Virus record (IMG/VR): IMGVR_UViG_3300000956_000002
Location: 16,253-80,252 of that record
Direction: 5' to 3' (one strand)
Length of the DNA: 64,000 nt
DNA from: a virus
Below, one piece after another: positions 609-63,820 of the stretch. Position numbers and translations under genes: made by a program. The notes below the pieces were generated by a model. It was not told where the DNA came from, did not search any database, and saw nothing but the letters and a program-made list of their open reading frames with translations. Position 1 is the stretch's first letter. The number at the start of each line of letters is the position of its first letter.

Positions 609-1403
609 ATGAACTATCACGCACAAAACCTATCGGACGGAAAACACTCAATCTTTTGGTGGGGCCGCGCATGGCTCGAACTCCTTTCTAGAAGATTTAG
701 GACAGAATGGATTTTTGGGAGACGGGCTGGTGGGCCGTCTTTTAAAATCGAGTTCGGAGAAGGTGATTCCGATGCAGATTTAACGCTTCACTTTTCCGTC
801 CCGTGGATTTTCTCACTGTGGCTCACGATCGAGAATGTCTGGAGAACGAAGCCGTTTTGGATTGGATTCTACATCTACGAAAAGGTTGCCTACTGCATTT
901 CGATCGCTGCGTTCACGAACGAAAAACGGCACAATGATCCATGGTATCGAAAAACGATCTATCGCGATTTCCCCTGGGCGCTGACGTGGCACTCCACGGA
1001 AATTCTTTGTGAGTCCGCTGAGACAGGGTGGGCAGTCGTATATCGAGAGGATCGCAAAACACGAAAATGCCGAGACACATTTGAAGTCATGCGCGAGAAG
1101 GAGGCGGCTGAAATCAAAGTCAGCAGCAAGTGGCCTTATCGATACGTTTTGAAAAACGGGACAGTGCAAGATGTTGTCGCCACGATGCACGTCAACCGCA
1201 TGGAGTGGCGTGCCCGTTGGTGGCCCATAATACCCATTAAAAAATCCCGCACGAGCATCAGCGTGGATTTCTCTGATGAAGTCGGAGAAGGAACCGGTTC
1301 ATGGAAAGGCGGGACCATTGGATGTGGATACGACATGTTGCCCGGCGAAAAGGCTATCGAATGTCTCCGCCGAATGGAGCGCGAACGGAAATTTGATCGA
1401 TAA
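609..1403 (+). CDS. Accessory protein of unknown function between portal and scaffold
   Basis: 264 residues, ATG at 609 preceded by AAAACCCC rather than a Shine-Dalgarno. The protein is very Trp-rich, with a possible hydrophobic segment near residues 65-95 and a conserved-looking C-terminus (residues ~230-264: GTGSWKGGTIGCGY, then a Pro-Gly-Glu turn and an Arg/Glu-rich helix). I recall this C-terminal pattern from uncharacterised phage and plasmid proteins but cannot name a family. It interrupts the portal-scaffold pair, as an inserted accessory gene (moron) would. Confidence 0.75.
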   Translation: MNYHAQNLSDGKHSIFWWGRAWLELLSRRFRTEWIFGRRAGGPSFKIEFGEGDSDADLTLHFSVPWIFSLWLTIENVWRTKPFWIGFYIYEKVAYCISIAAFTNEKRHNDPWYRKTIYRDFPWALTWHSTEILCESAETGWAVVYREDRKTRKCRDTFEVMREKEAAEIKVSSKWPYRYVLKNGTVQDVVATMHVNRMEWRARWWPIIPIKKSRTSISVDFSDEVGEGTGSWKGGTIGCGYDMLPGEKAIECLRRMERERKFDR

Positions 1404-3119: not shown

Positions 3120-4859
3120 ATGGATACACCGGTAATTTCCGATCGCTTCACCGAGCAATGCGCGGTGGTTTACGCGAACAACAACGACACCTGCGGCGGG
3201 GCAACGCGGGAAAACATTGCGTATTTCACGCCCGACCTGATGCAGACGATGTTTGCGCCGGGTGGTTTGTGGGCGGAGATGGATGCGTGGTTCGAGACGG
3301 CCTTCGAAATGAAGGCGTGCGGCACGCGCACCTACTCGATGTATGACTGGATCATGGCCAACACGCGCCAAGGCGGCGCGCAACTCCTGCAAAAGATCAA
3401 GCAGGGCCCAGGCAAATCACTTTTGCAGCCGTTCATCCTCGCGCGCCAAAGCTCGATCATCAATGACGACTACTGGAACGTCTCGAACGGCTGGCAGCAG
3501 AACGCGTATTCCGCAGGATCGACCGGGCCGTTGACCTCCGACGATTTGGCGGAAGGCGAATCGACTGATCGCGTCGTCCGCGTGACATCTTCGAACGGCA
3601 TTGAACTGGTGAGTAACTGGTTCAATCCCGGCATGCAGCAGTTCATCGTGACGAACGAAAGCGACACGGTGGGCATCGGCATGTGGCAGGTTTTGGCCAG
3701 CGCTGCGGCGACCAACGGCAGTTACGTCGATGTGTTGCTCCGCGACATGAACGGCGGCGCCACCCAATCCAACTACGATTCTTCGCCGACCTCCGGTTTG
3801 CTGGTGCGTTCGACGAATAACGTCAATGACTTCGAAAAATGGTGCCACAACGAGCCGAATTACGACGGCCGCAAGCTGGTGCCGATGTGGATCAAGACGT
3901 TCCGCCGTTCACGCTGCGTCGATTCCGAATACCTGAAGTTTTACGCGCGGCTCATGTCCGGCGCGAACAAGGCGTTCAAGGAATTCGGCGACCTTCCGCT
4001 GGCCGAGCGCAATGCCCAGGACGAACTGCATCACAAGAAAGCGTTCGTGAACAACTTCTTCTTCAGCGTGCCGTCGGATGCGAACCAGAACATCAACGAC
4101 TGGCAGGAATTGGAAGAAATCCGGACGCCCAGCGGTTACTCGGTTGACCCCGGCACGGGCGGCAAGTTGATTGCGTTGCGAGCCGAAAACATCGGTGTGC
4201 TCGAACAACTCCGGCGCTGCAATCGCGTGCGCGATTTGCAGAACCAACCGCTGAACTTCTACGAGTTCCTGAACGAGAACTATCGCATCATGCGCAGTCG
4301 CGGGAACAACCCTAAGAAGGGCGGGGCGATGGAAATCGACTGGTACACCGATAGCACGACCGCGGCGAACATTCATCGTGGCGTCATCGCGTATTGGAAG
4401 AAGGAGACGCAGGAAACCCTGGCGCTGAACCACGAGATGACCAAGACGAACACGTTCGGGATGAAATATCGCTCCTACAGCGACTTCGTTTTCCCGACGG
4501 GCTTGACCATCAACATCATCGTGAACGACGCGTTCGACGATTGGGTTAATGCCGGCGGTCCCCGCATTTTGACGGCGTTGGATCTCGGCGCCAACGGGAC
4601 GGTTTACTGGCTGCAAGTGGCGTCCAACCGCAAGCAGTACACGACCGGAGAAGTCGATAACCTGGCGAAGATCGATCGCGAATGGGCGTGTGTGATGGAA
4701 AGCGTCAGCGAAGAGCGGACGTTGCATTCCGACACTGGCGCTGTGGTTGTCGAATGCCCGCAGGATCAACTTTGGATTTGGGGCATCGCAAACGAAACGC
4801 CGGATGTGACCGGTGTGAACACCGAGAACGAAACGCCGTACTACCACGACTTGATCTAA
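3120..4859 (+). CDS. Major capsid protein (probable)
   Basis: 579 residues, ATG at 3120. It follows the scaffold-like gene and is followed by two hairpins, as abundant capsid genes often are. The sequence is a balanced globular protein without signal peptide or low complexity, and large for an HK97-fold capsid, so an insertion domain is possible. It contains an N-terminal segment (LMQTMFAPGGLWAEMD) and a long central domain rich in Asn, Asp and aromatic residues. No direct family motif was recognised, so the call rests on synteny, size and composition. Confidence 0.65.
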   Translation: MDTPVISDRFTEQCAVVYANNNDTCGGATRENIAYFTPDLMQTMFAPGGLWAEMDAWFETAFEMKACGTRTYSMYDWIMANTRQGGAQLLQKIKQGPGKSLLQPFILARQSSIINDDYWNVSNGWQQNAYSAGSTGPLTSDDLAEGESTDRVVRVTSSNGIELVSNWFNPGMQQFIVTNESDTVGIGMWQVLASAAATNGSYVDVLLRDMNGGATQSNYDSSPTSGLLVRSTNNVNDFEKWCHNEPNYDGRKLVPMWIKTFRRSRCVDSEYLKFYARLMSGANKAFKEFGDLPLAERNAQDELHHKKAFVNNFFFSVPSDANQNINDWQELEEIRTPSGYSVDPGTGGKLIALRAENIGVLEQLRRCNRVRDLQNQPLNFYEFLNENYRIMRSRGNNPKKGGAMEIDWYTDSTTAANIHRGVIAYWKKETQETLALNHEMTKTNTFGMKYRSYSDFVFPTGLTINIIVNDAFDDWVNAGGPRILTALDLGANGTVYWLQVASNRKQYTTGEVDNLAKIDREWACVMESVSEERTLHSDTGAVVVECPQDQLWIWGIANETPDVTGVNTENETPYYHDLI

Positions 4860-5456: not shown

Positions 5457-7019
5457 ATGCAAACCTACCAACAATTCACGACGAAGCTGCGGGGCAGAAT
5501 CTGGCCTGGGCGTGAGCCTGCGAATTTGGTGGCGCCGCATGACGCGATGTTTCAGACGGCGATGCTCGAACTCCAGAAGTGGGTGCCGTGCCTGAAGGAA
5601 TACAACATTTCAACTTACGAAAGCGCGGACCGTGAATGGGATGGGGCCAAGACGCGCGTGCAGATGCCGAATGGGCAGATTCGTCGGGTTTACACCGTGG
5701 CCGGCGGAACTGATCGCTGGCGGGATCGCGTTTTTTATCGGTCGTCGAATGTCCGGGAGATGGAGTGCTGGGCGCGCAATTTGATGGACGCCGAGACGCC
5801 GCCATTGCCGGATTTGGGTTACGGCGTGCGGGCGGAGAGCGAATCCAGCGATTGGGAACATGGCCGGGCGCGTCAGGGGATTTGGGCGCATTACCGCGGG
5901 AAGCTTTACATGGCGCCGTGGTTGCAGACCTACGAATTGCTGGTCGTTGAATGGGACGGCGAGAAGCAAGAATGGCAGGCCGGCGATGGGGTTGATCCGC
6001 GCATTTGGCGACACGATGCCGAGATGGCGGTGGAACTTTACGTCAAATGGCGGCACGAACAGAGTTACGGCGACATTGGTATTTCTCGGGAAATCAAAGC
6101 GACGTTCGACCGTGTGCTGGCAGATTTGATGCACTGGTGCCGGGAGAATACGCGCCAGCGGCAGGATGAAATTTGCGCGTCGGAAGGTGGGACGATCGAT
6201 CCGCGTCCGGCGGGCACAGATGATTTGTCGGAGGACGATGAGGATCCGACAGAGAATACGACGGATGAGGATGAAGTGCTGTTCAACGCGGTCGGCGATT
6301 TAGGCGACGACACAGAAGCGGCGGCGGCGGTGGCTGAAGCCGTCATTGCCGATAATCCCGAAGTTTTCATTGCGCTCGGGGACCTGACTTACAACGACGA
6401 TTTCGAGGCAGACTTCGGCGTCAAATACAGCGCGCTCATGACCGGTAATAAACTGATTCCAGTGCCGGGAAATCACGACGTTATCGATGGGAGCCTCAAT
6501 ACGTTCTCAGAATACTTTGCGGATTTCGTGGGGAACAATGGCCGGAATTACGAAGCGACGATCGGGCCTTGCCACATCCTTGTTTACAACACGGAGGACA
6601 CGGACGGCATCGATCCTGATTCAGCCCAGGCGGAATGGTTGCGGGCGAAACTGCTGCTTTCGACAGCGCGCTGGAAAATTGTGGTGATGCACAAGGCGCC
6701 GTATTCGTCGGACTCGACGCACGGTTCGAACGCTGATTTGCAATTCCCGTGGGAGGATTGGGGGGCAGTGCCAGATGTCATCATAGCGGCTCACGCGCAC
6801 GATTACGAACGGTTGGAGGTTGGTGGCGTTCCGTATTTCGTCGTCGGGACCGGCGGACATTCGCTTCGAGATTTCGGATCGGCGGTAGATGGCAGTCAGT
6901 TCCGGGACAACACGCACTACGGTCGGCTCATTGGGGAAGTGAATTGCGATCGCATGATTTTGAGTTTCAAGAGCGTGGACAATGAAGTCCTAGACTCACT
7001 GACGATCACGAAGGAATGA
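5457..7019 (+). CDS. Adaptor-like virion protein fused to a calcineurin-type metallophosphoesterase
   Basis: 520 residues. Residues ~1-250 form a Trp-rich domain placed where head-tail adaptors sit (after capsid). An acidic linker (~250-275, Ser/Glu/Asp/Thr) leads to a metallophosphoesterase domain whose motifs are all visible: GDLG (~279), GDLTYN (~308), GNHD (~338), VMHKAP (~411) and AHAHDYER (~445). The GDLTYN and HAHDYER forms recall purple acid phosphatase-type enzymes. Metal-binding residues appear intact, so phosphoesterase activity is expected. The fusion would place the enzyme on the virion. The adaptor role of the N-terminus is inferred from position only. Confidence 0.75.
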   Translation: MQTYQQFTTKLRGRIWPGREPANLVAPHDAMFQTAMLELQKWVPCLKEYNISTYESADREWDGAKTRVQMPNGQIRRVYTVAGGTDRWRDRVFYRSSNVREMECWARNLMDAETPPLPDLGYGVRAESESSDWEHGRARQGIWAHYRGKLYMAPWLQTYELLVVEWDGEKQEWQAGDGVDPRIWRHDAEMAVELYVKWRHEQSYGDIGISREIKATFDRVLADLMHWCRENTRQRQDEICASEGGTIDPRPAGTDDLSEDDEDPTENTTDEDEVLFNAVGDLGDDTEAAAAVAEAVIADNPEVFIALGDLTYNDDFEADFGVKYSALMTGNKLIPVPGNHDVIDGSLNTFSEYFADFVGNNGRNYEATIGPCHILVYNTEDTDGIDPDSAQAEWLRAKLLLSTARWKIVVMHKAPYSSDSTHGSNADLQFPWEDWGAVPDVIIAAHAHDYERLEVGGVPYFVVGTGGHSLRDFGSAVDGSQFRDNTHYGRLIGEVNCDRMILSFKSVDNEVLDSLTITKE

Positions 7020-7774: not shown

Positions 7775-8764
7775 ATGAGACTGATTCAAAAACTTATTTT
7801 GTGCCTGGCTATTGCTGTTCCTGTGCTCGGGGACGGGCCAAAGATTGCAGGCCGAGAATTTACTGAGTGGTTGAACGACTTTTTGGACACAAGTTCGTTG
7901 CTCCCTAAAAACGAAGGAATCGCAACCAGCTTGACAGTGGTCGGGTCAATTACCAATTTCGCGAAAGCTGAGATTACAACCACTACTCTATCGGGTTCGT
8001 CGATCACGCTCGATTGGACTGCTGGCGGAGAATACCGGCACACAATGGCCGCGGACACAACGTTGTCGTTCGCAAACTCCACCGGAACAAACCGAACAAT
8101 CGTTTTAAACGCCTACCCTGACGGCACACATAGCTACACTTGGCCTTCAGGGGTGATTCCACTGACGCTTACAAATCAACCTTTGTCGCAAGGTTTAACC
8201 AAAATCTATTTCGACAGGATAGATGGGACAAATTATTTGAGCGTCTCCCCGGAGCCACGCAAGGACAGGATGCTATTCACTGGACTTCAATTCAGTGACG
8301 GGATCGGTGCGGTCCCAAACACAAACGATTACACAGCCGTCACATTCATGCACTACAAGTTCAGTGGCACTGCGGCGACGAATGCGAATTACGGCGTTTA
8401 TCCAATTGTTCCGGTCCCAGACAATTTGAACACCAACGTCGCTCTGCGCGCGCGCTTGACGGTTCGGTTGAGCGGAACTGACACTGACCCATCTACTTGG
8501 AACTTAGGCGTTCAAAACGTATCAAATTCAGCGAGCGGGTCATTTGGAGGCGCCGGAAATTGGGTGTCAATCACCATGTCTGGAGATGCTTCTGGAGCCG
8601 CGAACGATCTTGAACGAAGTAGCTGGGTGACCCTTACCGGATGGGCGGGCGCGTTGACTGCTGGGCAATCGATGTTCGTTGTCCTTAACCGGAATGGGGC
8701 AAGCGACACTTCGAATGTTGGCGTCTGGGATGTAAACCTCGAACTGGAGTACGGCATCCAATGA
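7775..8764 (+). CDS. Secreted or virion beta-rich protein with signal peptide
   Basis: 329 residues. The N-terminus (MRLIQKLILCLAIAVPVLGDG) is a typical Sec signal with cleavage near residue 20. The rest is Thr/Ser/Asn/Gly-rich and beta-stranded, like fibre or lectin-type domains, with no catalytic motif recognised. It overlaps the next gene by ATGA (8761-8764), so translation is coupled. First of three consecutive genes with signal peptides, odd for a virion module. Either a fibre part exported before assembly or an extracellular moron protein. Confidence 0.65.
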   Translation: MRLIQKLILCLAIAVPVLGDGPKIAGREFTEWLNDFLDTSSLLPKNEGIATSLTVVGSITNFAKAEITTTTLSGSSITLDWTAGGEYRHTMAADTTLSFANSTGTNRTIVLNAYPDGTHSYTWPSGVIPLTLTNQPLSQGLTKIYFDRIDGTNYLSVSPEPRKDRMLFTGLQFSDGIGAVPNTNDYTAVTFMHYKFSGTAATNANYGVYPIVPVPDNLNTNVALRARLTVRLSGTDTDPSTWNLGVQNVSNSASGSFGGAGNWVSITMSGDASGAANDLERSSWVTLTGWAGALTAGQSMFVVLNRNGASDTSNVGVWDVNLELEYGIQ

Positions 8765-9630
8765 AAAAGCTTTTCCTTATATTTTTGCTGGTTTTGATAC
8801 CGACAGTGATACACGGCTCCACCCGCGTGATTCCGTGGCCCAATCTGCCTATAGGGTCGCCTTTGTTGCTCGATAAGGTCGATTCCGCTAACCTCTACTC
8901 TGCTTACTCAGTTTCGAGAAAACTTCGGAACGGTTATTCTGGGGCAGCATTTCAGGTTCGACGTGCTAGCGACAACACGACGACTAACATTGGTTTCATT
9001 GGAACTGCTGTCGATACGGCAGGGCTTCTCGCATTCTGTTCCGGAACGGACGGGTTTTTGCCCATCGTTTACAATCAAGGACCAGCTTCAAGTCGTGACA
9101 TCGCATCCGCCTCCGGAAACCAACCAAAGATCGTAACCGCTGGCGTTCTTGAAACTGGCAACAACTCGCGGCCTTGCATGGTCTTTGATGGGTCGGATGA
9201 TTTTTTGAACCTCACAGCGACGATCGCTCTTCCAGTCAGCTTTTATATCGTGGTGGCAAACACATCGACTGTGAACATTGACACGATTATTTACGGAGGT
9301 TCAACGACACGCGCCAGCCTGAAACAGCGCACCGGGCCGCTGTTCGGATTGAATTCTGGAACAGATCAAACCTACTCATCGTACGTAAACGGGAATTGGT
9401 ATCTTGTCCGGGCGACATTCCAGTCCGGAAACGAAGCGTTTCGGCTTAACGCAAACTCCGAGGACGCAACCAAGGATGCAGGATCGAACTCCGTAACTTC
9501 GCTGGGATTTGGGGCAGCGACCGCCACTGGCCAGTTTAAGAGCAGCGAATTGATTTACTTTAACCAAGGAACCCACGCCGATGAAGCTACTATTTTGGCA
9601 GATATTAACGCTCACTACGCTCTCTATTAA
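8761..9630 (+). CDS. Exported arabinofuranosidase B/LamG-like protein
   Basis: 289 residues, start overlapping the previous stop. Signal peptide MKKLFLIFLLVLIPTVIHGS. The mature part has SAYSVSRKLRNGYSGAAF, QVRRASDN, then FCSGTDGFLPIVYNQ and a GSDDFLNL segment. This order matches the N-terminal jelly-roll of GH54 alpha-L-arabinofuranosidase B (ArabFuran-catal domain), also seen in phage tail proteins. Whether the catalytic acids are kept cannot be judged by eye. Likely binds or trims polysaccharide outside the cell. Confidence 0.6.
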   Translation: MKKLFLIFLLVLIPTVIHGSTRVIPWPNLPIGSPLLLDKVDSANLYSAYSVSRKLRNGYSGAAFQVRRASDNTTTNIGFIGTAVDTAGLLAFCSGTDGFLPIVYNQGPASSRDIASASGNQPKIVTAGVLETGNNSRPCMVFDGSDDFLNLTATIALPVSFYIVVANTSTVNIDTIIYGGSTTRASLKQRTGPLFGLNSGTDQTYSSYVNGNWYLVRATFQSGNEAFRLNANSEDATKDAGSNSVTSLGFGAATATGQFKSSELIYFNQGTHADEATILADINAHYALY

Positions 9631-11341
9631 AGTTGCGGCCGGGACGTATTACATAGATTGGGACGGCGGTTCGGATGCGAACAACGGAATAAGCACCGGT
9701 ACGGCTTGGAAGCGTTCCCCTGGAATGGTTGGGTTCGCTGGCTCGTATTCGCACGCGGCGGGGGACCACTTTATTTTTAAAGGCGGCGTCACTTGGCCAA
9801 GGACGGTGCTTCCACTGACAATCGCTAACTCTGGAAACTCTTCTACGCCGGATGTTTATCGTTCGACAAACACATGGTATAGCGGAGGAAGTTTCGCCAT
9901 CCCATGTTTTGACGGAGAGCACATTCAGCTTGTTGGGTCGATTTCGTCACCGATTTACGTCACGGGCGATTACATCACAATTTCAGGAATTGAGATCAAG
10001 CGACAACTGGTTCCGAACTCAGCCGGTTTCAACGCCTACGGGCATGGTGGAATTCGGGTTTCAGCGGCAGGGTCTTTTGTGACAGTAAGGGAATGCTGGA
10101 TTCATGATTGGCTCCCTGCTGTTAGCGCAGCTACGCCGAACAATACCGACTCTGATTTCGGTGGCGTCGTTGGGTTAAGCGGCTCATCAAATATTGTCGT
10201 AATCACAAATGTGATCGGGCCGGGTCTGCCTCCAGTCGGTTTGACTGGAAACAGTGGATGCGGAGTCGGCGGAACAGTTCTCGTCGTTTCGAGCAATCGT
10301 ATTTTTGGAGTGACGGAATGTATCAACGGGGGCGCGACAAACATTTCCTTCAACTACCTCAGCTATTGCACGAACTCGTACGATCCGCCCTACCATCCGA
10401 ATGTGATTTACCACGGGCTCGCGAGCAACGGTAAGGCGTGGATATACGGGAACACGATCCACGGAATTGATACTGAATTTCAAACGATGTTATTGCACGT
10501 TGGCTACCTCGGAGCCACCAACACGGCCTACTACATCTCAGGGAATTTGATTTACGATGTGTCGTCTCCAATCGACGTTGACGAATCGGGGATCGTAATA
10601 GCTAACAGCGGAACAAAGGCTTACATTTACAATAATACCATTTCCAGAAGCATCACGGTTGCAGCGTTAAAACGCAACCAGACCTATCACATCAGCCTTT
10701 TGGAGTGTAAAAATAACCTCTGGATTTCCGACACGCCAACCGGGAACCCAATCGGAACAGCGGCCACTACTTCCGCCTATGCGCCAGTGGAATCTTTGGT
10801 TGACGACAACAATGTGTGGCTGACTTCCGCGCAGGCCGTAACGGCAGGCTACACGACCGTAAATCTTTTCCAGGGCACGTCCGCTACGGCTGGGCTCGGC
10901 GACAATTATTATTCATTGGTGTTCCCAAGATACGATGTGCTGGGTCGCGAAAGGCAATCTGTGGGGGATTGGGATATTGGAGCCTACGCTCTGGTCGGGC
11001 CAACGATTTCAACGATCCCAGACCAATCGATTTATAAAGACGAAGCAACCGCGGCAATCCCGTTTACGTTAAGCGACATCGACGATGCGGAGGCGGATTT
11101 AACTCTGAGCGTCGAGTCCAGTAACACAGCTTTGATACAAACGGGTGACATTTCTTTTGGTGGAAGCGGAGCAAGTCGGACGATAACCGTGACACCCGAC
11201 GCAGGAGAAACAGGCTCATCGACGATAACCGTCACGGCTGAAGACCCTAACGGAAACACCGGATCTACTGAGTTTCTAATCGATGTCACCGAGCCGATCG
11301 TTATCCCTGCGCGCGTCGGAACTTTCGTCCGGCGCCGATAA
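9581..11341 (+). CDS. Exported parallel beta-helix protein with C-terminal Ig-like domain
   Basis: 586 residues. ATG 9581 lies 50 bases inside the previous gene. Signal peptide MKLLFWQILTLTTLSIKVAA is followed by TYYIDWDGGSDANNG, the usual start of secreted right-handed beta-helix proteins in Verrucomicrobiota and Planctomycetes. Residues ~80-420 show short beta repeats (ISGIEI, VTVREC, ISFNYL, IYNNTI) as in polysaccharide lyases. Residues ~475-570 form a cadherin/Ig-like domain (IPDQSIYKDE...). It ends in a basic VRRR tail without a recognisable sorting motif. Its 3' end overlaps the opposing VPDSG gene by 41 bases. Confidence 0.65.
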   Translation: MKLLFWQILTLTTLSIKVAAGTYYIDWDGGSDANNGISTGTAWKRSPGMVGFAGSYSHAAGDHFIFKGGVTWPRTVLPLTIANSGNSSTPDVYRSTNTWYSGGSFAIPCFDGEHIQLVGSISSPIYVTGDYITISGIEIKRQLVPNSAGFNAYGHGGIRVSAAGSFVTVRECWIHDWLPAVSAATPNNTDSDFGGVVGLSGSSNIVVITNVIGPGLPPVGLTGNSGCGVGGTVLVVSSNRIFGVTECINGGATNISFNYLSYCTNSYDPPYHPNVIYHGLASNGKAWIYGNTIHGIDTEFQTMLLHVGYLGATNTAYYISGNLIYDVSSPIDVDESGIVIANSGTKAYIYNNTISRSITVAALKRNQTYHISLLECKNNLWISDTPTGNPIGTAATTSAYAPVESLVDDNNVWLTSAQAVTAGYTTVNLFQGTSATAGLGDNYYSLVFPRYDVLGRERQSVGDWDIGAYALVGPTISTIPDQSIYKDEATAAIPFTLSDIDDAEADLTLSVESSNTALIQTGDISFGGSGASRTITVTPDAGETGSSTITVTAEDPNGNTGSTEFLIDVTEPIVIPARVGTFVRRR

Positions 11342-11837
11342 GCACAACGCTAATCGCGAGCAAAGCAGCGCTGCTGTTCGTGTCTGGAACTTCGTTGGGC
11401 GTCGGCGTTGGGTCTGGTATCACTGGAAGGCCCGGAATCGTGGATGGAAGATTAACGTCAAATGTCGCGATGGTAAATGAGCCGAATATTTGAATCGAGT
11501 CGCCGGTCGTGGCTTGGTAGTAATCAAACTTCACGTCATGCGTTCCTGGCGTAAACGCTGATCCCAAGTCTGGAATTAGTCCGTAGATATCATACGGGGC
11601 CACCTCTGTGGCGTTTTGAGCCTCAAAAACAAGAGGTACAACAATCTTGTGGGCATAAACCAATCCATCGATGAATAGGAATGATCTGGTAATATCTGGT
11701 TCGAGATCAATAACCCCGACATGGAGATGGACCCCGGCGTTGTCCTGATCGACGGTGATATCCAAAGTTGCAATCGCCTTTGATGTTTGAGCCGAAAGCG
11801 CAAAAAGCGCGCAGAGTATTGTTAGGATTTTTTTCAT
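11301..11837 (-). CDS. VPDSG-CTERM-like exported protein
   Basis: 178 residues, ATG 11837. Signal peptide MKKILTILCALFALSAQTSKA, a beta-rich body, a Pro/Thr spacer (PVIPDPTPTPNE), then VPDTNSSAALLAISVVLIG followed by RKFRR. That tripartite end (motif, hydrophobic helix, basic cluster) is the layout of VPDSG-CTERM signals handled by exosortases in Verrucomicrobiota. It faces the surrounding operon and has its own promoter-like sequence, so it is probably expressed from the prophage as a cargo gene. The protein would be sorted to the host envelope. Function of the body is unknown. Confidence 0.75.
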   Translation of the reverse strand: MKKILTILCALFALSAQTSKAIATLDITVDQDNAGVHLHVGVIDLEPDITRSFLFIDGLVYAHKIVVPLVFEAQNATEVAPYDIYGLIPDLGSAFTPGTHDVKFDYYQATTGDSIQIFGSFTIATFDVNLPSTIPGLPVIPDPTPTPNEVPDTNSSAALLAISVVLIGAGRKFRRAQG

Positions 11838-11987: not shown

Positions 11988-14900
11988 ATGGCCCAATTTC
12001 CTTTGCCGCAGCCGATTAAGATCGTGGATTCTGGTCCGCCGCCGAATGCGAATTACGCGGCGTCGAACAAACAGTATAAGGGCCATGGCAGTCCGGAGGG
12101 TGTGGTGGCGGGGATTGTGGGGGATGAGTATCTGGATTTGGACACGGGCGCTAAATGGAGCAAGATGGGGCCTGATGAAGCTCCGCCGCGACAAACAAAA
12201 GACGGTTGGCAACCAGATGGGGTTGATTTGGCGGATATTCGAGATTTTGGGGTGGCTCCAGATTCGGAAGATGACCAAGGGGATTTGATCCAAACGGCTT
12301 TGGACGCCTCGGCGGAAGAGGGTTTCGTTCTGACTGTGCCGGATGGGATTTATCTGCACACGGCATTGACGGTTTCGGGGTTAATTCGAATCCGCGGCAC
12401 TGGCAAAGGGAAGGCGATTTTCAAGGCGCGCGAAGCGTACGACAGCACGAATGGACTTTGGACGGTGCAAGCTGGCGCCGACGTTGTTTTCGAGGACGTA
12501 GGTTTGCATGGGAACGATCAAGTGAATCGCATCCTGCGCATCAACGCTGGCGCTGACGTGGAAGTCTTGCGGTCGAAGATTTCGAATGCCTACGGTTCTG
12601 TTTCGGTATCGGCTACAGTTTGTGGAATTTTCTGCGGTGGCGGTGGAACCTTACGTGTACTGGATTCGGTCGTTCAGGATTTGATTGCCGAACCTGATGG
12701 CGATAACACCGGGAACGTGCCTGGCACTGTTCGCGGTATTTCGATTGCCAAACAAGGGAGCGAGGATCCACCGACAGAAGTTTTGATTTCGCGATGCACG
12801 TTCAAGAATATTTTATCCGGCGACGGCGCTTCGGAGCGCAACGAGGATTCAGATGCCATCGCGTATCAGTCGTTTGGTCAGGACACGAAAGGCAACGTAA
12901 AGGTCATCGGTAATCATTTCCATAATATCGGCAAGCGGTGGATGAAGATTTTGAGTCCTGGTGTGATTTTCGCTGATAACGATGGGACGAATGAATCGAC
13001 TTCAACGCGGCCGATGTATGCCATCGTGAGCGCAAATAGCTCCGATATTACTGTGGCGAGGAATCACGCTGTCGGCGGCGCTGTCGGGTTATTTTGCGAC
13101 GTCGGAAATCCTGGGGCGTGGGCGTGCAATAATGTTCACGTCGTCAATAATTACTGCAAACAGAGCGAGTCTGATCCATACACTTCCGCGGAGGGATGCA
13201 GAACATTCGGTGGAACATCGGAGCTTTGCTCGGGTGTTAAAATCAGCGACAACGATTTCATCGGGTTTCTGATTGGTGTGCATGTGAACGACGGGTCGGT
13301 TGGTGTCGTTGTCACGGACAACTACATTGAGGCCACCGAGGCGTGCGTGCATGTCTCGTGGCGGTACAATTCCGAGAATTTGTTGAACTATCCAGACCCG
13401 GATATGGTTCTGGTGCATGGGAACGTTGGGATGGCGACGACGTACGGGTTGAGGTGGAAGGGCGCAACGCAGGCGGTGTCAGGTGATAATCTTTTTGAGG
13501 CCGGCGATGCGCTCATCGTTGAAGGCGATTATGCGACGACGTTTGTTACAGTTGAGAGGTTTAACCAGCAAATTCGTGGCGGAACGATCAAAGGGATTAC
13601 GGCGCCTTTTTTGGTTGGATCGACCACAGCCACAACATACGGATCAGAGACACCTCAAGTTCAATCGATAGATACGGCCTCAAGCGGTGGGGTTGCCGGG
13701 CTCTCTGCTGAAACGCGCGATGGGACCAGAAATCGGCGAATCAGAATGACTGTCGTTGACGGCGCGAATCCATCAACTGACCAACGAGCAGGACTTGAGA
13801 CTACGCAGTCCTCGGGTGGGACAGTGCCGTTTTTTATTAAGCTTGGTGGAACTGTTCGAAAGTGGATCGACTCGATTGGGCGCCATTTCTTCTCTGATCC
13901 AACAACAGATAGCCTTGCGGTCAGTATCTCTGAGGGAACAAGCAGTCCAGAAGGGGTGAGGGTGGCGAATCCTGGTTCCATTTACATTCAGCGAGATGGA
14001 TCAACTGGACGAGTCTTTTGGAGGAAAGAATCCGGCACGAGCAATACTGGATGGAGCGTTTCGAGAAACAAGGAGGATTTTCTCGATTGGGGAGCAAGTG
14101 GCGCTGGAGTTGATGATGTTTCATCGGCGTTTACGTCAGCGGTGGCCGCACGATCTCACATTGTAATTGAAAGTGGAACGTATTCTTTTGCGGATGATTA
14201 CACGATTGCCGCTGGGGTTGTGTTGATAATGCGACCAGGGGCAAAATTAAAGCCAGCGAGCGGGAAGAAGATCACGATCAACGGCGAAGTGCAGGCCGGG
14301 CGGCATGAGATTTTTGATTACAGCGCCGGCGGCAAAGTGGCTTTTGGGTCATTCGCTCGAATGACTTTTATTCTGCCGGAATGGTGGGGAGCGGTTGGTG
14401 ATGCTTCGACTAATAACGACACAGCATTCGGAAGGATTTACGATGCAGCGTTGGGCGCCTCTGAAAACAAGCAGACGCTTTTATTGGCTTCGTCTTATTA
14501 CAATTTCGTGGCCGGGTTCACGGTCAAATCGAAAACGGCGATTAAAGGACAAGGGCATCGTCAAACTCGTTTGCAGTTTGCGCCGACTTCGAGCGGTAGA
14601 TTAATTACACTTCCGGAGGATGGGGACAACTTCACGATTGAAGGCGTCCAACTCAATTGCAATGCGTTCTCGGCTGGAGTCAGAACAACGGCCATCGGCG
14701 CCGCCGGAGACACTGACGAGATTAACACGCTTCTCGCTCGCGACGTGGTGATCTCAAATTTCAACCAATACGGTTTCAATTTCGGCTCCTGCATCTGGTC
14801 GCGATTTGAGGCTGTCGAATTTGATAGTGTTTCGAATCGTGTCGCTCTCGGGGGCACCGGAGATGGATCGGCTATCTGCATCAATTTCCGAAGCTTTTCA

Positions 14901-16055
14901 AACGCCATAGAGATTGGGAGCATGTGTCGCGCTGGGCAATGTGAACAATTTCTCAAGACGGTGGATGCAGCGTCTCTTTCGGTTGAAAATAATTCCTTCG
15001 AACAATCCGATGCGACAATCGATGCCGTCTTAAACAAGACGAGCTTCATTGACGTGGTTGGGAGCAACGTCCGCATCGAGAAGAATTACTTCGAGGGCAT
15101 CCGGTCGGACAATCCCGGCGCCGTGATTAATATCACGTCAGCGGATTCTCCTGTCGTCTCAGAAAACCGATTGAATGGGCATCGCCCCGGAGGGAGTACG
15201 TCGGTTTCGGAGATTTTCGTAAGAATAAATGCTTCCGTAAATGGCGGCTGGGTTGCGTGCAATACGTTTCTCGGGGTGCCGGACTATTACATCCAAGTCA
15301 ACGGATCGTCGCAGCCTGTATCGGCGCCGCAAAATACCTACCTCAACAACAGTGAGGTTCCCTACACGGCGTTCTCGCAAATCGAAGCAATGATGTCTCC
15401 ATCTGTGACCGACCTAACGATGTCCACGGAGATTCGTTTTTGCCGCCCCCAGGTGACGAGAATCACCAGCGCCAATACCAACGTCGCGACGGTTCAGGTA
15501 TGGGAAAAGTATCGGAGCGGTGGCTCCGGTTCCGCTAATGACGGCGTTCAGGTTGTTTCAAAACTGACGAACGATGCTGGAAACAATTCCCAAACTCAGG
15601 TTGGTACGATGGGCTGGATGTATGAGAATCCGGCTGACTCGACTGAGCAGGCGAAGTTTCGTGTTCAAGTTATGAACACTGGTCAACTCGCGACCGGTTT
15701 TGAGGCGTTGTCCAAAGGGGGATTCTATACGCAAGGCCCGCCAATCTCCGACATCGTGGTTTCCGCTGTCGATGTGGTCGGAACACAAAAGAATTGGAAG
15801 TGCATCCTTACAGCGACCGGGAAAAAATACTCCTGCCCCAATCCATCCGCTGGGACACCGGCGCTGCCGGAAGGTTGGAAATGTTTTGTGAAGTTGAACA
15901 TCGGCGGAGTTGGAACAGGAACAGTTGATTTCGTGAACGCCACGGATCGCATCCGGCCATCTGGAGCTTCCTCCTACAGCTTGTCGGCCGATGGGAAATA
16001 CGTCGAACTCGAGTACATCGGAAACAACGACTGGATCATCATTCGCGAAGGATAA
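11988..16055 (+). CDS. Tail spike/fibre with two tandem pectate-lyase-like beta-helices
   Basis: 1,355 residues. Residues ~75-560 form a first beta-helix opening with LADIRDFGVAPDSEDDQGDLIQTALD, the common start of pectate lyase superfamily spikes. Residues ~700-1150 form a second one (DFLDWGASGAGVDDVSSAF, later WWGAVGDASTNNDTAF). The C-terminus (~1240-1355) is a compact Gly/Ser beta domain likely used for trimerisation or capping. Such proteins bind and often depolymerise surface glycans. Two helices in one chain suggest duplication or fusion of two spikes. No signal peptide, unlike the proteins just upstream. Confidence 0.75.
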   Translation: MAQFPLPQPIKIVDSGPPPNANYAASNKQYKGHGSPEGVVAGIVGDEYLDLDTGAKWSKMGPDEAPPRQTKDGWQPDGVDLADIRDFGVAPDSEDDQGDLIQTALDASAEEGFVLTVPDGIYLHTALTVSGLIRIRGTGKGKAIFKAREAYDSTNGLWTVQAGADVVFEDVGLHGNDQVNRILRINAGADVEVLRSKISNAYGSVSVSATVCGIFCGGGGTLRVLDSVVQDLIAEPDGDNTGNVPGTVRGISIAKQGSEDPPTEVLISRCTFKNILSGDGASERNEDSDAIAYQSFGQDTKGNVKVIGNHFHNIGKRWMKILSPGVIFADNDGTNESTSTRPMYAIVSANSSDITVARNHAVGGAVGLFCDVGNPGAWACNNVHVVNNYCKQSESDPYTSAEGCRTFGGTSELCSGVKISDNDFIGFLIGVHVNDGSVGVVVTDNYIEATEACVHVSWRYNSENLLNYPDPDMVLVHGNVGMATTYGLRWKGATQAVSGDNLFEAGDALIVEGDYATTFVTVERFNQQIRGGTIKGITAPFLVGSTTATTYGSETPQVQSIDTASSGGVAGLSAETRDGTRNRRIRMTVVDGANPSTDQRAGLETTQSSGGTVPFFIKLGGTVRKWIDSIGRHFFSDPTTDSLAVSISEGTSSPEGVRVANPGSIYIQRDGSTGRVFWRKESGTSNTGWSVSRNKEDFLDWGASGAGVDDVSSAFTSAVAARSHIVIESGTYSFADDYTIAAGVVLIMRPGAKLKPASGKKITINGEVQAGRHEIFDYSAGGKVAFGSFARMTFILPEWWGAVGDASTNNDTAFGRIYDAALGASENKQTLLLASSYYNFVAGFTVKSKTAIKGQGHRQTRLQFAPTSSGRLITLPEDGDNFTIEGVQLNCNAFSAGVRTTAIGAAGDTDEINTLLARDVVISNFNQYGFNFGSCIWSRFEAVEFDSVSNRVALGGTGDGSAICINFRSFSNAIEIGSMCRAGQCEQFLKTVDAASLSVENNSFEQSDATIDAVLNKTSFIDVVGSNVRIEKNYFEGIRSDNPGAVINITSADSPVVSENRLNGHRPGGSTSVSEIFVRINASVNGGWVACNTFLGVPDYYIQVNGSSQPVSAPQNTYLNNSEVPYTAFSQIEAMMSPSVTDLTMSTEIRFCRPQVTRITSANTNVATVQVWEKYRSGGSGSANDGVQVVSKLTNDAGNNSQTQVGTMGWMYENPADSTEQAKFRVQVMNTGQLATGFEALSKGGFYTQGPPISDIVVSAVDVVGTQKNWKCILTATGKKYSCPNPSAGTPALPEGWKCFVKLNIGGVGTGTVDFVNATDRIRPSGASSYSLSADGKYVELEYIGNNDWIIIREG

Positions 16056-16064: not shown

Positions 16065-16469
16065 ATGCGAAGGTCATATCGAATCCCGGAACCAGCCAAC
16101 CCGCTTGATCCAGAGATCGCGCAAGCGATGGTCACGAGCCGCCTTCAGGTCCCGCCTGATGACGTTTTCGAGGCACAATTTAGCGAGGAGGACCTTGTAA
16201 AGTTCAAAGAAGCAGACCAGAAGCTACTAGGTCTTATGAGCATACAACGTCAGTGGATTGATTGGCTGATATCTGCGGTGCAGAAACAGGATGATTCTAT
16301 TCGTCAGGTTGACGCCGAGGTGGCGCGTCGAAAAATTGACCTGGCAAAATTGAAAAGCGAAACAGAGGAACAAACAATCGTATGGCGCATTTTACGATGG
16401 ATGATCCCACTGCTCGTGGGTGGCGCGCTAACTGCAATTGGCTCGCTTCTGATCAAGGGGGGTCTGTGA
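16065..16469 (+). CDS. Coiled-coil protein with one C-terminal membrane helix
   Basis: 134 residues. Residues ~45-105 are a charged helical stretch (LLGLMSIQRQW..., then RKIDLAKLKSETEEQ), and residues ~110-134 a membrane helix (IPLLVGGALTAIGSLLIKGGL). First of several small membrane-gene candidates after the spike, suggesting a lysis-cassette role such as a holin accessory or spanin-like factor. Its stop overlaps the next start. Confidence 0.6.
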   Translation: MRRSYRIPEPANPLDPEIAQAMVTSRLQVPPDDVFEAQFSEEDLVKFKEADQKLLGLMSIQRQWIDWLISAVQKQDDSIRQVDAEVARRKIDLAKLKSETEEQTIVWRILRWMIPLLVGGALTAIGSLLIKGGL

Positions 16470-16615
16470 AGAAATTGCAAAAGCAATTGCAGGACGTGGT
16501 GGATCAGATCCGCAGCGAAGATCGCGACTCCAGTAAAGACGCGAAATACAACGCCGCGCTGTGCTCTGCAATTGACTCCATTCAAAAGCGGCCGCGGAAA
16601 TCGCATGAAGTTTGA
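16466..16615 (+). CDS. Small helical protein (49 aa)
   Basis: GTG start at 16466 overlaps the preceding stop as GTGA and follows a G-rich site (AAGGGGGG). Highly charged helix starting VKKLQKQLQDVVDQIRSEDR. Alternative in-frame ATG at 16382 would bury the start in the upstream gene and gives an unlikely N-terminus. Function unknown. Confidence 0.5.
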   Translation: MKKLQKQLQDVVDQIRSEDRDSSKDAKYNAALCSAIDSIQKRPRKSHEV

Positions 16616-16997
16616 TTCGCTACTTGCTCGCATCGATCGCCTGCCGCCTTGTTTGTGCCGGCTGCTGGCGCGTCGAAACGTCACCGGCGGGGGTTGGGCG
16701 CCGAAAAGCACGCGGGACATCGCCGCGGATGCCGGGCTGTCGAAATCAGCGGTGGCGGAATTAAGCCGACGCCGAACGTGGCGTGGAACTCCGATTGGAA
16801 TGGCCGATGCGTTCGCGCGCGGGTGTGGCGTGAACCTGGCGGAGGTGGATGCAGTGATCAAGCGACTAAGGTATCATCGGACGCGCCTGCGGCATCTCAG
16901 TAAAGGCAATGGGCATCAGCGGCGGATGATTGCGGATTTGTTGAAGCAAGTGAAAAACCAAAACCCCATGGAAAGTTCGAGCACTCTCAATGGATGA
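16605..16997 (+). CDS. HTH-containing DNA-binding protein
   Basis: 130 residues, ATG 16605 overlapping the previous gene by 11 bases. A helix-turn-helix is visible at residues ~35-60 (STRDIAADAGLSKSAVAELSRR), followed by a basic helical region. Could regulate late or lysis genes. The last residues overlap the next gene by 8 bases. Confidence 0.55.
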   Translation: MKFDSLLARIDRLPPCLCRLLARRNVTGGGWAPKSTRDIAADAGLSKSAVAELSRRRTWRGTPIGMADAFARGCGVNLAEVDAVIKRLRYHRTRLRHLSKGNGHQRRMIADLLKQVKNQNPMESSSTLNG

Positions 16998-17352
16998 AAC
17001 AATTCACCTCTCCAAGAATGAATCGGAGACTCCGACGCCAACGCCGCCGGGAGTTCAGACAACAAAAACTGAGACGAAGATCGAGTCGGTGGAGACTGAG
17101 ATCACGCCGGCCAACGGACGACGACATCGCCATCCTGGTGAACTGATGGGGATGAGCGGGCGGTTTTGGATCGCCTTCATTGGAATGCTCGGTGTCGTTT
17201 ATATCGCTGGTGTGGTAGTTCACAAATCGAAGGACGAGATCGATCCTCAAGTGTCGGCGATGATTCTCGGCGGGTTCCTTACGCTGATCGGCAACGTCGC
17301 TTCCAACTATTTTGGACAAAACACCGGGCCGACGAAGCCTAAGACTTCATAG
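16990..17352 (+). CDS. Holin-like membrane protein
   Basis: 120 residues: a ~45-residue Thr/Pro/Glu-rich cytosolic N-terminus, then two membrane helices (FWIAFIGMLGVVYIAGVVV and a second near MILGGFLTLIGNVASNYF) and a short tail. Two-helix small proteins after tail genes are typical class II holins, which permeabilise the inner membrane at lysis. Assignment is by topology and place. No endolysin is recognisable next to it. Confidence 0.55.
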   Translation: MDETIHLSKNESETPTPTPPGVQTTKTETKIESVETEITPANGRRHRHPGELMGMSGRFWIAFIGMLGVVYIAGVVVHKSKDEIDPQVSAMILGGFLTLIGNVASNYFGQNTGPTKPKTS

Positions 17353-17389
17353 TCCAATCCACGATTGACGGTCCGATGGGTGAACGTTA

Positions 17390-17401
17390 CCGTAATTACG
17401 G
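17390..17401. promoter_or_regulatory. Operator before the lipoprotein gene
   Basis: CCGTAATTACGG, a perfect 12-bp version of the family palindrome, 13 bases before ATG 17415. TTGACG at 17365-17370 with a 17-base spacer to TACCGT makes a promoter-like pair; the operator would cover the -10 region. Confidence 0.5.
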
Positions 17402-17414
17402 AATACGGATAAGT

Positions 17415-17861
17415 ATGAAAAAATTCACCCAAATCATCGCCCTTGTAGCGCTCACCATCGGCATGCTCAGTCCCATCGGACCGGTGGCGTGTTCGAAAAC
17501 AACACTGTCGGCTGACGGCGTTTACCAGGGAGACAAAACCCTTTACTCCGCCGAAAAAACGATTACCACGGCCTACAAATCCTTCGACGCGTTTTTGAAG
17601 TGGGAGGAAACCTATCGGGCGGCGCTGCCGGTGGATGTCAGCCGAGCGGCCGACACTGTTCGTTTGAACGCCAAGAAATGGATCGATAGCGCGAGCGCCA
17701 TGCGTGACGCCTATGCTTCCAGCCCGACAAAGGAAAATCGGGACAAGCTGCAACTCACACTGTCGTTGATCGACACGGCGCTGGCTGAATCGTTGAAATA
17801 CATGCAGGCCAACAAGTCGATTGCGCCGGCGCCGCCGAGCAATTTGCCAGTGAAGAAATAA
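17415..17861 (+). CDS. Predicted lipoprotein
   Basis: 148 residues, ATG 17415. The N-terminus MKKFTQIIALVALTIGMLSP then GPVACSKTT has a lipobox-like Cys near residue 26, followed by a helical charged domain and a Pro/Ala tail. Located among membrane genes after the holin candidate, it could act at the outer membrane during lysis (o-spanin-like) or alter the surface of the lysogen. It has its own operator-linked promoter, which favours separate control. Confidence 0.55.
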   Translation: MKKFTQIIALVALTIGMLSPIGPVACSKTTLSADGVYQGDKTLYSAEKTITTAYKSFDAFLKWEETYRAALPVDVSRAADTVRLNAKKWIDSASAMRDAYASSPTKENRDKLQLTLSLIDTALAESLKYMQANKSIAPAPPSNLPVKK

Positions 17862-19656: not shown

Positions 19657-21132
19657 TTAATCTCCGTACGGCGTGCGGGCGTTCGATTCGTATGGAACAT
19701 TCGAAACTTTGCTGGCGCTCTCGTAGCGTGTGAACGATTTCAGGAACGTGAGATTCACGTCGCCGGTTGGACCATTGCGCTGTTTGGCGATCAAGAGGTT
19801 GATCGGCACGGCTTCGATCTCCTGCGGCTCATCGGCGGCATCTTCGTCCTCTTCGCGCTGCGCTTTGTAGAGCAAGCCGACGAGATCCGCATCCTGCTCG
19901 ATGGCGCCGGACTCGCGAAGGTCTGAAAGGCGTGGCTTCCGGTTTTTGTCTTTTTCGAGTTCCCGGTTGAGTTGGGCGAGGACGATCACCGGCACGTCGA
20001 GTTCTTTAGCCAGCGCCTTAATGCCGTTGGATATGATCGAGATTTCCTGCTGGCGATTGTCGAACTTTTTTCCCGTTCCTCCGTTCAAGAGTTGCAGGTA
20101 ATCAATGACGAACAGTTTGATGCCATGCTGCTGATACATTCGCCGGGCCTTCGCGCGCAGTTGCATGATGGACAGGCCGGCGGTTTCATCGAGATAGATT
20201 GGGGCGTTTGCTATTTTTCCGGAGGCCCCGGTGAGTCTTGGAAAGTCGCGTTCAGCCAAAAATCCATCGCGGACGTTCCGAAGGTTGACTCTGGCGCGCG
20301 AACAGATCGTCCGAACGATCAGGGACTTGCTGGACATTTCGAGGCTGAAGATTCCAACAGGCTTTTTTTCTTCGATGGCCACGTGTTCGGCGATGTTCAT
20401 GGCCAGGGCGGTCTTGCCCATCGACGGCCTACCAGCGATGACGATCATCTCTCCGCCCTTCAAGCCGCCGGTCATTTTATCGAAGTCTGGAAATCCAGTT
20501 CCGACTCCCATCAGCGCGCCGGCATTTTGGTGATATTGCTCAATCTCGTTGATAGCCTCGTGCGTTATAGCCTTGATCGATTTATCCACTGAAACGATGC
20601 GGTCCTGGCTGATCTCCAGAATATTCCGCTCTACTTCGTCCAAGAGAGCTTCCACGTCGCCTTGGTGCTCGTAAACCTGCCCCACGGCTTGCGTGCAGGT
20701 CTGGATGACCTTCCGAAGCAGGAACTTCTCGCGCAGGATGTCGGCGTAGTACTCGAGGTTGGCAGCCGACGGGACGCAGTTCATCAGCCCGGCGATGTAA
20801 GGCATGCCGCCTAAGGCTTCCAGTTGGTTGCGATCCTTCAGGTATTGACCGACGCCGATGGGGTCGATCAACTCGCCTTTATCCTGCATCTCTGCCAGCA
20901 CGTCGAAAAGCGCCTGGTGGCGCATGTCGTAAAACATCTCGCTGCCGCGGCGCAGTTTGTCGATCGCCAGCGGCATGCAGGTCTTAGGTTCGAGCAGAAT
21001 GGACCCAAGGACGCCCTGCTCGGCTTCGATGCTGTGCGGTGGCAATCTGTCCGCAACCTGAGGCATTGGTAGCGGGGATGAATCGCGGCGGCGCCGGCGG
21101 GGTTGCTCAAGCATTTGGTCGGGGTCCATCAT
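19657..21132 (-). CDS. dnaB: Replicative DNA helicase, DnaB type
   Basis: 491 residues, about the usual DnaB length. N-terminal helical domain with PPHSIEAEQGVLGSILL (~31-47), linker, then the RecA-like core: Walker A GRPSMGKTA (~234-242), the motif SLEMS (~263-267), Walker B FVIDYLQLL (~341-349) and QLNRELE sensor region. Unwinds DNA 5'-3' ahead of the phage fork in place of the host helicase. Start overlaps the initiator-like gene by 26 bases; a second ATG lies three bases further in. No intein. A host origin for this gene is likely given its similarity to bacterial DnaB. Confidence 0.95.
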   Translation of the reverse strand: MMDPDQMLEQPRRRRRDSSPLPMPQVADRLPPHSIEAEQGVLGSILLEPKTCMPLAIDKLRRGSEMFYDMRHQALFDVLAEMQDKGELIDPIGVGQYLKDRNQLEALGGMPYIAGLMNCVPSAANLEYYADILREKFLLRKVIQTCTQAVGQVYEHQGDVEALLDEVERNILEISQDRIVSVDKSIKAITHEAINEIEQYHQNAGALMGVGTGFPDFDKMTGGLKGGEMIVIAGRPSMGKTALAMNIAEHVAIEEKKPVGIFSLEMSSKSLIVRTICSRARVNLRNVRDGFLAERDFPRLTGASGKIANAPIYLDETAGLSIMQLRAKARRMYQQHGIKLFVIDYLQLLNGGTGKKFDNRQQEISIISNGIKALAKELDVPVIVLAQLNRELEKDKNRKPRLSDLRESGAIEQDADLVGLLYKAQREEDEDAADEPQEIEAVPINLLIAKQRNGPTGDVNLTFLKSFTRYESASKVSNVPYESNARTPYGD

Positions 21133-37472: not shown

Positions 37473-37990
37473 TGGACGAATTGGTTCTAACTCCAGATCC
37501 GCCGCCAGTTCATCGACAGGCATTTGCTGGATTGACCGAAGGAAAAGATGAATGGCTTACCCCCCCCCATATCATCAAATCGCTGGGCGAGTTTGACCTC
37601 GATCCATGTTCGCCGATCGAACGCCCATGGCCGACGGCGAAACAGCATTATCATCGGCTCGACAACGGACTAATGAAAGAATGGGCCGGTCGGGTTTGGA
37701 TGAATCCTCCGTACGGTCCGGAGACTTCAAAATGGATGTCGCGACTCGCGGCTCATGGAAATGGGATTGCGTTTATCTTCGCTCGAACTGAGACCGAGAC
37801 TTTCTTTAAACACGTGTGGCCAGTCGCAAATGCCATCCTGTTCCTAAAAGGGCGTGTCCGTTTCCATCACGTTAGTGGTCGTGCCGCCGATGCCGCTGGT
37901 GCGCCGTCGTGCCTCATCGCTTACGGGAATGAGAACGTCGAGGCGTTGGGAAAATCCGGAATTCCCGGAAAACTTCTCAGGATTCAATAA
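37472..37990 (+). CDS. Phage DNA N6-adenine methyltransferase (Dam-like)
   Basis: 172 residues from ATG 37472. DEWLTPPHIIKSLGEFDLDPC (~24-44), then WAGRVWMNPPYG (NPPY catalytic motif, ~72-83) and FIFARTETETFF match the phage Dam family (PF05869). Modifies adenines, likely against restriction. A run of nine C (37560-37568) encodes the Thr-Pro-Pro of the first motif and could slip to switch the gene off. Its end overlaps the opposing giant gene by seven bases. Confidence 0.88.
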   Translation: MDELVLTPDPPPVHRQAFAGLTEGKDEWLTPPHIIKSLGEFDLDPCSPIERPWPTAKQHYHRLDNGLMKEWAGRVWMNPPYGPETSKWMSRLAAHGNGIAFIFARTETETFFKHVWPVANAILFLKGRVRFHHVSGRAADAAGAPSCLIAYGNENVEALGKSGIPGKLLRIQ

Positions 37991-45960: not shown

Positions 45961-45989
45961 ACTGAGGGTCCTATACTCTGAATTGGCAC

Positions 45990-46018
45990 TTGACGCCATC
46001 CGTAAATTACGGAATAGG
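45990..46018 (+). promoter_or_regulatory. Promoter with operator in the spacer (small RNA candidate)
   Basis: TTGACG (45990-45995), a 17-base spacer ending in the perfect palindrome CCGTAAATTACGG (46000-46012), then AATAGG (46013-46018). The same palindrome is 40 bases upstream of the giant gene's ATG on the other strand, so one operator may control both directions. Confidence 0.55.
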
Positions 46019-46024
46019 TTACGC

Positions 46025-46151
46025 GTCCGAACAATCGGTGTGGAAGCCGAGGGTAAGCGACCGGAACGGTTCAGATGAAATTTTGGGTAACTCCAAACCC
46101 GCTCGAAAAACGTCTTACCACGTCTTCCACCGAGCGGGTTCTCTTTTTTTT
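46025..46151 (+). ncRNA. Candidate small RNA with intrinsic terminator
   Basis: Downstream of the operator-promoter lies the box CAATCGGTGTGGAAGCCGAG (46032-46051), a small CCG-GAA-CGG hairpin, and a terminator AACCCGCTCG (46096-46105) with CGAGCGGGTT (46131-46140) followed by eight T (46144-46151). No credible reading frame fills it. The box recurs with one change at 49001. Transcript length about 125 bases; target unknown. Confidence 0.55.
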
Positions 46152-62258: not shown

Positions 62259-62452
62259 TTGTCGTCCACTATCTCTGTTCCGATGTTTTGGCCACGCTTA
62301 TTCAAGATTGTTCTAAGCCCGAACTCCACCCATATTCTCCCGTAAACTTTGCGGTTCTGCGCTGGGTAAGTGTCGTATTCAGTCGTTCCAAAATTAATAG
62401 CACTGATTACACAACTCCTCCCGTTTTCATCTGTGACTTTAAAGCCGATCAT
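62255..62452 (-). CDS. 65-residue beta-rich protein, unknown
   Basis: Strand-rich sequence (GFKVTDENGRSCVISAINFG), coupled by ATGA to the integrase stop and to the next gene. Unknown. Confidence 0.55.
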   Translation of the reverse strand: MIGFKVTDENGRSCVISAINFGTTEYDTYPAQNRKVYGRIWVEFGLRTILNKRGQNIGTEIVDDK

Positions 62453-63759
62453 GGTATCAAAACACCCGCCTTCTTCCCTTGTCCGCCCTTGGGTAATTCG
62501 ATTGGTGTGTTGCGGACTTTATCCGGCGTGAGCATTTCAAATTGTTCGCCCGTCTTGCGCCGCATGATGCCGCGATAGTGATCGTGCAGAATCTTCGGCG
62601 AGTTCCCGAGCATGCCAGCGACTTTCGTTTCGTTGTCGTCATATTTCCACATCAGGAACGACGCGCAGGTTTTACGAAGGATGTCTTGCTCCCATTTGAT
62701 GCCCGCGCGTTTGCAAAGCTTCTTGCGATGGCGCCGAATGCACTGGCGGACGGTGCGCATGGTTTTCTCGACTGCTTCGCCACGGCCCAGGCGGTCGCCT
62801 TTGGCTTCGCATTCGAAGATGTATTCGTATGGATATTTCGCAGTGGTATCGGCAGCCCCTTCAACTATTGGCTTCAACCACGCCATCAGTAACGGCTCGA
62901 TCTCAAAGCACCGACGCTGCCGCGTTTTACTCACGCCGTCCTCGATCACGATTTCACCGTCGTCCAAGTGAATGTCGCGCCACCGCAGCTTCTCCAACTC
63001 CTCCGGACGAATGCCGCCGAACAGCCCCAGCACAACGTAGGGCAGGAATTGTCGATCCGTCACACGACAAACCCAAAGCAGTTTCTCCGCTTGGTCCGGC
63101 GCGAGAATCACCGGCGTCTTGGCATCGACATACGGCATCTCGACGTGGTTCATCGGATTGGCCCCGGCTTCCAAATACGTGTTGTTCTTGCACGCCAGCG
63201 TGAACATAGCCTGCAATCGCGCGATCACCCCAAGCAGCGTTGAGCCCTGGGCTTGACCTTTGCCGCCCGGCCCTTTCTGGTTGGCGAGGAAATCCGTGAT
63301 CATGGCCGGCGTGACCTGATGGAGTGGCATCGAATCACGGCCGCGCGCAAATCGATCGAGAACAGATTTAAGGCTCGCGAGGTATCTCGGCCGCCGATTG
63401 CTCGTGGTCTTGGTCTGCATCGTGATCGTGATCATCTCGCGCAACGTGATCGTCCGATGTTTGGCTGCCCCACTGTTCGCCTTGTAGAACTCGGTGGCGC
63501 CACGGATCGTCGTGCCCAGATTGCGAAGCTCGGCTGCGCACACCATGATATCCACCTGCTCATAAGGTTTCAGCCGTGACCAAATGACACCGTGCTCTCT
63601 GTATTGGAATTTCGTCGATTCTTCAACAGACTCGGCCTCAGCCCTTGTCTTAAACCAAAGGCGCTCCCGCTTGCGCACGCCTCCCTTCGGCGGATGGTTG
63701 ATCACCAGTTCGAATCCAGGCTTCCCGCGGCGCTTTGTTTCGATGATATGGGATTTCAT
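62449..63759 (-). CDS. int: Tyrosine recombinase integrase
   Basis: 436 residues from ATG 63759 (a longer read to 63804 is less likely). N-terminal arm/core-binding parts (~1-190) precede the catalytic domain: FGGIRPEELEKLRWRDI (Arg box I), SKTRQRRCFEIE, DILRKTCASFLMW (box II, with Asp where HxxR normally has His), and GNSPKILHDHYRGI (His and nucleophile Tyr). Drives integration at the adjacent tRNA-Ala. It heads an operon in which every downstream gene down to 60183 is joined by overlaps, so cargo and integrase are transcribed together. Confidence 0.92.
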   Translation of the reverse strand: MKSHIIETKRRGKPGFELVINHPPKGGVRKRERLWFKTRAEAESVEESTKFQYREHGVIWSRLKPYEQVDIMVCAAELRNLGTTIRGATEFYKANSGAAKHRTITLREMITITMQTKTTSNRRPRYLASLKSVLDRFARGRDSMPLHQVTPAMITDFLANQKGPGGKGQAQGSTLLGVIARLQAMFTLACKNNTYLEAGANPMNHVEMPYVDAKTPVILAPDQAEKLLWVCRVTDRQFLPYVVLGLFGGIRPEELEKLRWRDIHLDDGEIVIEDGVSKTRQRRCFEIEPLLMAWLKPIVEGAADTTAKYPYEYIFECEAKGDRLGRGEAVEKTMRTVRQCIRRHRKKLCKRAGIKWEQDILRKTCASFLMWKYDDNETKVAGMLGNSPKILHDHYRGIMRRKTGEQFEMLTPDKVRNTPIELPKGGQGKKAGVLIP

Positions 63760-63820
63760 GGGGTATTTGTCCGTTGTGCTACCGTTTGCTACCACTTTTT
63801 TCAAGCAAAAAATTACTGAA

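Follow-up and report, generated by a model that had tools for sequence, protein, structure and literature searches.

P0001, a small exported protein encoded on the minus strand of a viral genome (11301..11837), is best read on balance as an envelope protein from a phage accessory ('moron') gene, which would use the exosortase of a Verrucomicrobiota host. The window analyzed here is a 64,000-nucleotide stretch that covers bases 16253-80252 of an 80,252-base IMG/VR virus record (IMGVR_UViG_3300000956_000002). The case for a sorting signal draws on a local model of host tails, the register of the conserved residues, the signal peptide, the affinity of the phage DnaB, the co-occurrence of XrtC and VPDSG proteins in candidate hosts, and a second viral contig. 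The unusual feature is the carrier, a phage bearing a candidate exosortase substrate; a search of a library of open-access papers turned up no account of a phage carrying an exosortase substrate.

The ORF at 11301-11837 is a real gene. It is a single frame of 178 aa in the ORF list, and a codon-usage model made from the other genes of the window scored this frame at +27 bits and all five other frames as negative. Residues 1-21 (MKKILTILCALFALSAQTSKA; 11775..11837, minus strand) were read by eye as a Sec-type signal peptide, in agreement with the first-pass annotation of this sequence. A lipobox is absent from the N-terminus, where the residue before Cys9 is L, not G/A/S. Because a classic unimolecular spanin combines a lipobox with a C-terminal helix, this candidate identity was ruled out. 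Residues 22-149 (11391..11774, minus strand) form an orphan core for which homologue searches returned no match. An AlphaFold model of the protein (pLDDT 39.8) was unusable, and strands in the core are suggested solely by this very low-confidence model. Residues 150-178 (11304..11390, minus strand) make up a C-terminal tail, defined from the sequence and the local model, in which VPDTNSS is followed by the hydrophobic AALLAISVVLIGAG and the basic RKFRRAQG. The protein thus ends in VPDTNSSAALLAISVVLIGAGRKFRRAQG, with the layout VPD-TNSS-AALLAISVVLIGAG-RKFRRAQG, and the VPDTNSSAALL motif, hydrophobic stretch and Arg/Lys cluster that had been described at the extreme C-terminus are all present. 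Pfam and PHROGs searches gave no match of P0001 to a known exclusion family.

VPDSG tails are a C-terminal tag for cell-surface sorting in Verrucomicrobiota, and XrtC is their cognate exosortase. The placement of the P0001 tail at the extreme C-terminus (150-178 of 178), with a signal peptide (by eye) at the N-terminus, is what VPDSG-CTERM requires. The TIGR03778 search proposed in the first-pass annotation was sub-threshold, with 13.7 bits in a six-frame search and 15.7 bits for the isolated tail against a curated cut-off of 22, and P0001 was unreported at E<=0.1 with PF18205 (gathering cut-off 25 bits). P0001 is not a strict VPDSG-CTERM member by curated cut-off. Control genomes also gave TIGR03778 matches at the same loose threshold, making this score alone unpersuasive, so we built a local model from 21 VPDSG tails of Verrucomicrobiota genomes, with P0001 left out. 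This model scored P0001 at 17.9 bits and its isolated tail at 21.9 bits; no other ORF among 21,342 exceeded 9.1 bits, and no shuffled tail among 20,000 exceeded 11.2 bits. The resemblance of the P0001 tail to host VPDSG tails is beyond chance.

Position by position, V1, P2 and D3 of the tail occur in 21/21 host tails, L10 and L11 in 20/21 and R22 in 19/21. The first Arg falls at position 22, in the same spacing and register as in host VPDSG tails, and identities to one host tail reach 12/23. Three residues depart from the consensus: Asn5 (in 0/21 hosts, with Gly5 in 20/21), Ala12 (in 1/21, with Gly12 in 19/21) and Lys23 (in 0/21, with Arg23 in 20/21), and through these departures recognition by XrtC may be lost. 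The earlier claim of a VPDSG-CTERM-like sorting signal is upheld by the local model, the register and the signal peptide, with scores that fall short of the curated TIGR03778 and PF18205 cut-offs.

Profile matches in the record identified TerL (L002:12560-14209, minus strand), an integrase (62449..63804, minus strand; phrog_1, E 5.5e-24), DnaB, an exonuclease, HNH endonucleases and an anti-restriction protein. Based on the integrase, the phage is potentially temperate. TerL is common to this phage and two viral contigs, G010 and G019 (27%), both of which also match a putative capsid gene at 3120-4859 (27% and 23%), and further structural genes are common to all three. These shared genes place P0001 within a phage structural module rather than in attached host DNA. 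A VPDSG match is absent from both relatives.

Several other genes of the record deserve mention. The phage probably has an anti-defence gene adjoining its structural genes, since the product of 609-1403 (plus strand) matches the CBASS inhibitor Acb3 (PF25187, 1.6e-34); the anti-restriction protein lies at L002:1379-2011 (minus strand; phrog_2059, 1e-32). A structural-module protein (5457-7019, plus strand) has a fused calcineurin-like phosphoesterase domain (PF00149), and L002:5181-6347 (plus strand) encodes a phosphoadenosine phosphosulfate reductase (PF01507). On the minus strand, 58453-60120 encodes a phage protein with Big_2 and von Willebrand A domains that is also found in G010 and G019, and 37984-46419 encodes a 2811-aa protein without a match in PHROGs and Pfam searches.

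As the first-pass annotation had noted, P0001 opposes the operon, lying on the minus strand with plus-strand genes on either side (ORF list and Pfam). The convergent neighbor (9581..11341) encodes a 586-aa protein with a Big_9 domain and a Sec-like N-terminus, and its 3' end overlaps that of P0001 by 41 bp, tail to tail. The divergent neighbor (11988..16055) encodes a 1355-aa, pectate-lyase-like (PF12708) protein of tail-spike type. Without P0001, a plus-strand gap of ~650 bases would separate the two. The promoter that had been attributed to P0001 was not substantiated: a single weak sigma-70-like match was seen, where shuffled sequences gave an expectation of 1.3, the second hexamer of this match falls within the ORF, and neither a terminator nor a promoter was found at P0001 beyond chance expectation. 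Each product of the three consecutive plus-strand tail-fibre-type genes at 7775-8764, 8761-9630 and 9581-11341 starts with a Sec-like signal peptide, a surprise for virion proteins, as these assemble in the cytoplasm.

The phage DnaB helicase (19657..21132, minus strand) nests among Verrucomicrobiota chromosomal DnaB proteins, and we conclude from this affinity that the host is probably a member of the Verrucomicrobiota. Among the best 80 GTDB genome matches to this DnaB, 74 are titled Verrucomicrobia, Pedosphaera, Limisphaerales or Akkermansia; the other six comprise four titled 'bacterium', one 'Proteobacteria' and one 'Klebsiella', and the latter two bins branch inside Verrucomicrobiota in the DnaB tree. 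The genes surrounding three of these DnaB genes (L077, L085 and L106) look chromosomal. In the tree the phage DnaB falls closest, with weak support, to L074 and L076; the genomes of both (G031 and G033) encode VPDSG proteins and give a strong XrtC match. Across 50 candidate Verrucomicrobiota host genomes, VPDSG tails over the cut-off were present in 13 and an XrtC match (TIGR04151) of at least 134 bits in 12, three of them over the cut-off of 300; 11 genomes had both. The phage record itself has no exosortase, so the enzyme must come from the host. The TerL profile had no match in the 50 genomes, so none of them yielded a prophage of this kind.

Homologues of P0001 were not found among viral contigs, genome contigs or phages, nor in 30 DnaB-bearing viral records, and the five weak phage matches were to RIIA proteins (E 6-10). 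Against the 50 Verrucomicrobiota genomes the matches were mostly tail-only, the best being to a protein of G031 (E 2.5e-4) that is itself a VPDSG protein, and these host genomes yielded no homologue of the core. BLAST of short consensus tails against INPHARED phages gave no match under a low-complexity filter that may hide matches. Because Gly5 and an Arg pair were obligatory in the pattern scans of 2.9 million IMG/VR viral contigs, these scans would pass over a tail that departs from the pattern as the P0001 tail does.

A looser VPDSG pattern retrieved 39 stretches from IMG/VR, and only two had the right architecture, both in IMGVR_UViG_3300009678_000075. One protein of this contig, P0002 (244 aa), scores over both cut-offs (TIGR03778 25.8 bits, PF18205 26.1 bits), and its core is unrelated to that of P0001. 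A further VPDSG tail, scoring 38 bits, lies 2.9 kb away as an orphan without a gene body (L213 1972-2039, equivalent to G081:38848-38916; minus strand; open frame of 36 aa), apparently a decayed gene. The contig encodes DnaB and a polymerase-type exonuclease and has little in common with the P0001 phage except DnaB. It has no recognized terminase or capsid, leaving IMG/VR and the replication genes as the basis for calling it a phage. A Sec-like signal peptide is also present at the start of the 668-aa P0004 of contig G081.

We propose that P0001 would be a Sec export substrate retained in the inner membrane through its C-terminal helix, and that a host XrtC-type exosortase would recognize the VPD tail and send the core on to the outer envelope or the cell surface. 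The substrate would come from the phage and the enzyme from the host. The benefit would most plausibly be a changed envelope of the infected or lysogenic cell; alteration of the host envelope by phages is known. That the tail is recognized and cleaved, that the protein reaches the surface, when it is expressed and how the phage benefits are all inferred. The lysogenic expression, surface display and phage exclusion raised in the first-pass annotation are guesses. More tentatively, and with doubt outweighing confidence, Verrucomicrobiota phages may carry their own exosortase substrates and install proteins via host XrtC, which would amount to lysogenic conversion through the exosortase pathway.

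P0001 may instead be exported and then just stay fixed in the inner membrane through the C-terminal helix, serving a periplasmic role such as DNA entry or lysis with no exosortase involved. We consider this unlikely, but the most credible of the alternatives. A signal peptide and a C-terminal helix suffice for such a topology, membrane segments or a signal-like N-terminus occur in the small products of several neighboring genes (16065-17861), and the tail is off the XrtC consensus at position 5. However, mere anchoring does not need a VPD, an LL pair and an Arg in the exact host register, and the missing lipobox argues against lysis by a classic unimolecular spanin.

The substitution at this near-invariant position would also fit a host VPDSG-CTERM gene that was recently acquired and is decaying, functionless for the phage, and the bodiless tail in G081 points to decay of such genes in viral contigs. 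This is improbable for P0001, whose 178-codon frame is intact, with codon usage like that of other window genes, and for whose core a host homologue was not found. Least probable, and in our view very much so, is that P0001 goes with the flanking tail-fibre-type genes as a tail accessory protein, either secreted or associated with the virion. Its location inside the structural module and the signal-like N-termini also seen in 7775-8764, 8761-9630 and 9581-11341 would suit such a protein, but P0001 lies on the strand opposite to the operon and has a C-terminal helix with a basic end, a feature missing from its neighbors.

To our knowledge, function is known in few exosortase substrates. If P0001 is indeed a phage-supplied substrate for a borrowed enzyme, it would offer a handle both on the function of exosortase sorting and on host remodelling by phages of a poorly studied phylum. 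Prophage superinfection-exclusion envelope proteins (e.g. P22 SieA, PMC10883804) resemble P0001 only in a possible role in the infected-cell envelope, an analogy alone, with no homology to P0001. PEP-CTERM proteins of the EpsH exosortase system are reported, like P0001, to combine a signal peptide and an orphan core with a tripartite C-terminus across diverse exported proteins (Haft 2006, PMC1569441), but their motif is PEP and that of P0001 is VPD. P0002 (IMGVR_UViG_3300009678_000075) and P0001 are alike in their viral contig, signal peptide, VPDSG-type tail and lack of an accompanying exosortase; they differ in that P0002 has a canonical tail over the cut-offs and an unrelated core. With the VPDSG-CTERM proteins of Verrucomicrobiota (TIGR03778/PF18205, with XrtC, TIGR04151), P0001 differs in being phage-encoded, in having Asn for the near-invariant Gly5, in its sub-cut-off score and in having no exosortase on its replicon, but it is like them in its signal peptide, core size, VPD, LL, helix, R22 and basic end, and in the A-rich leader before its ATG.
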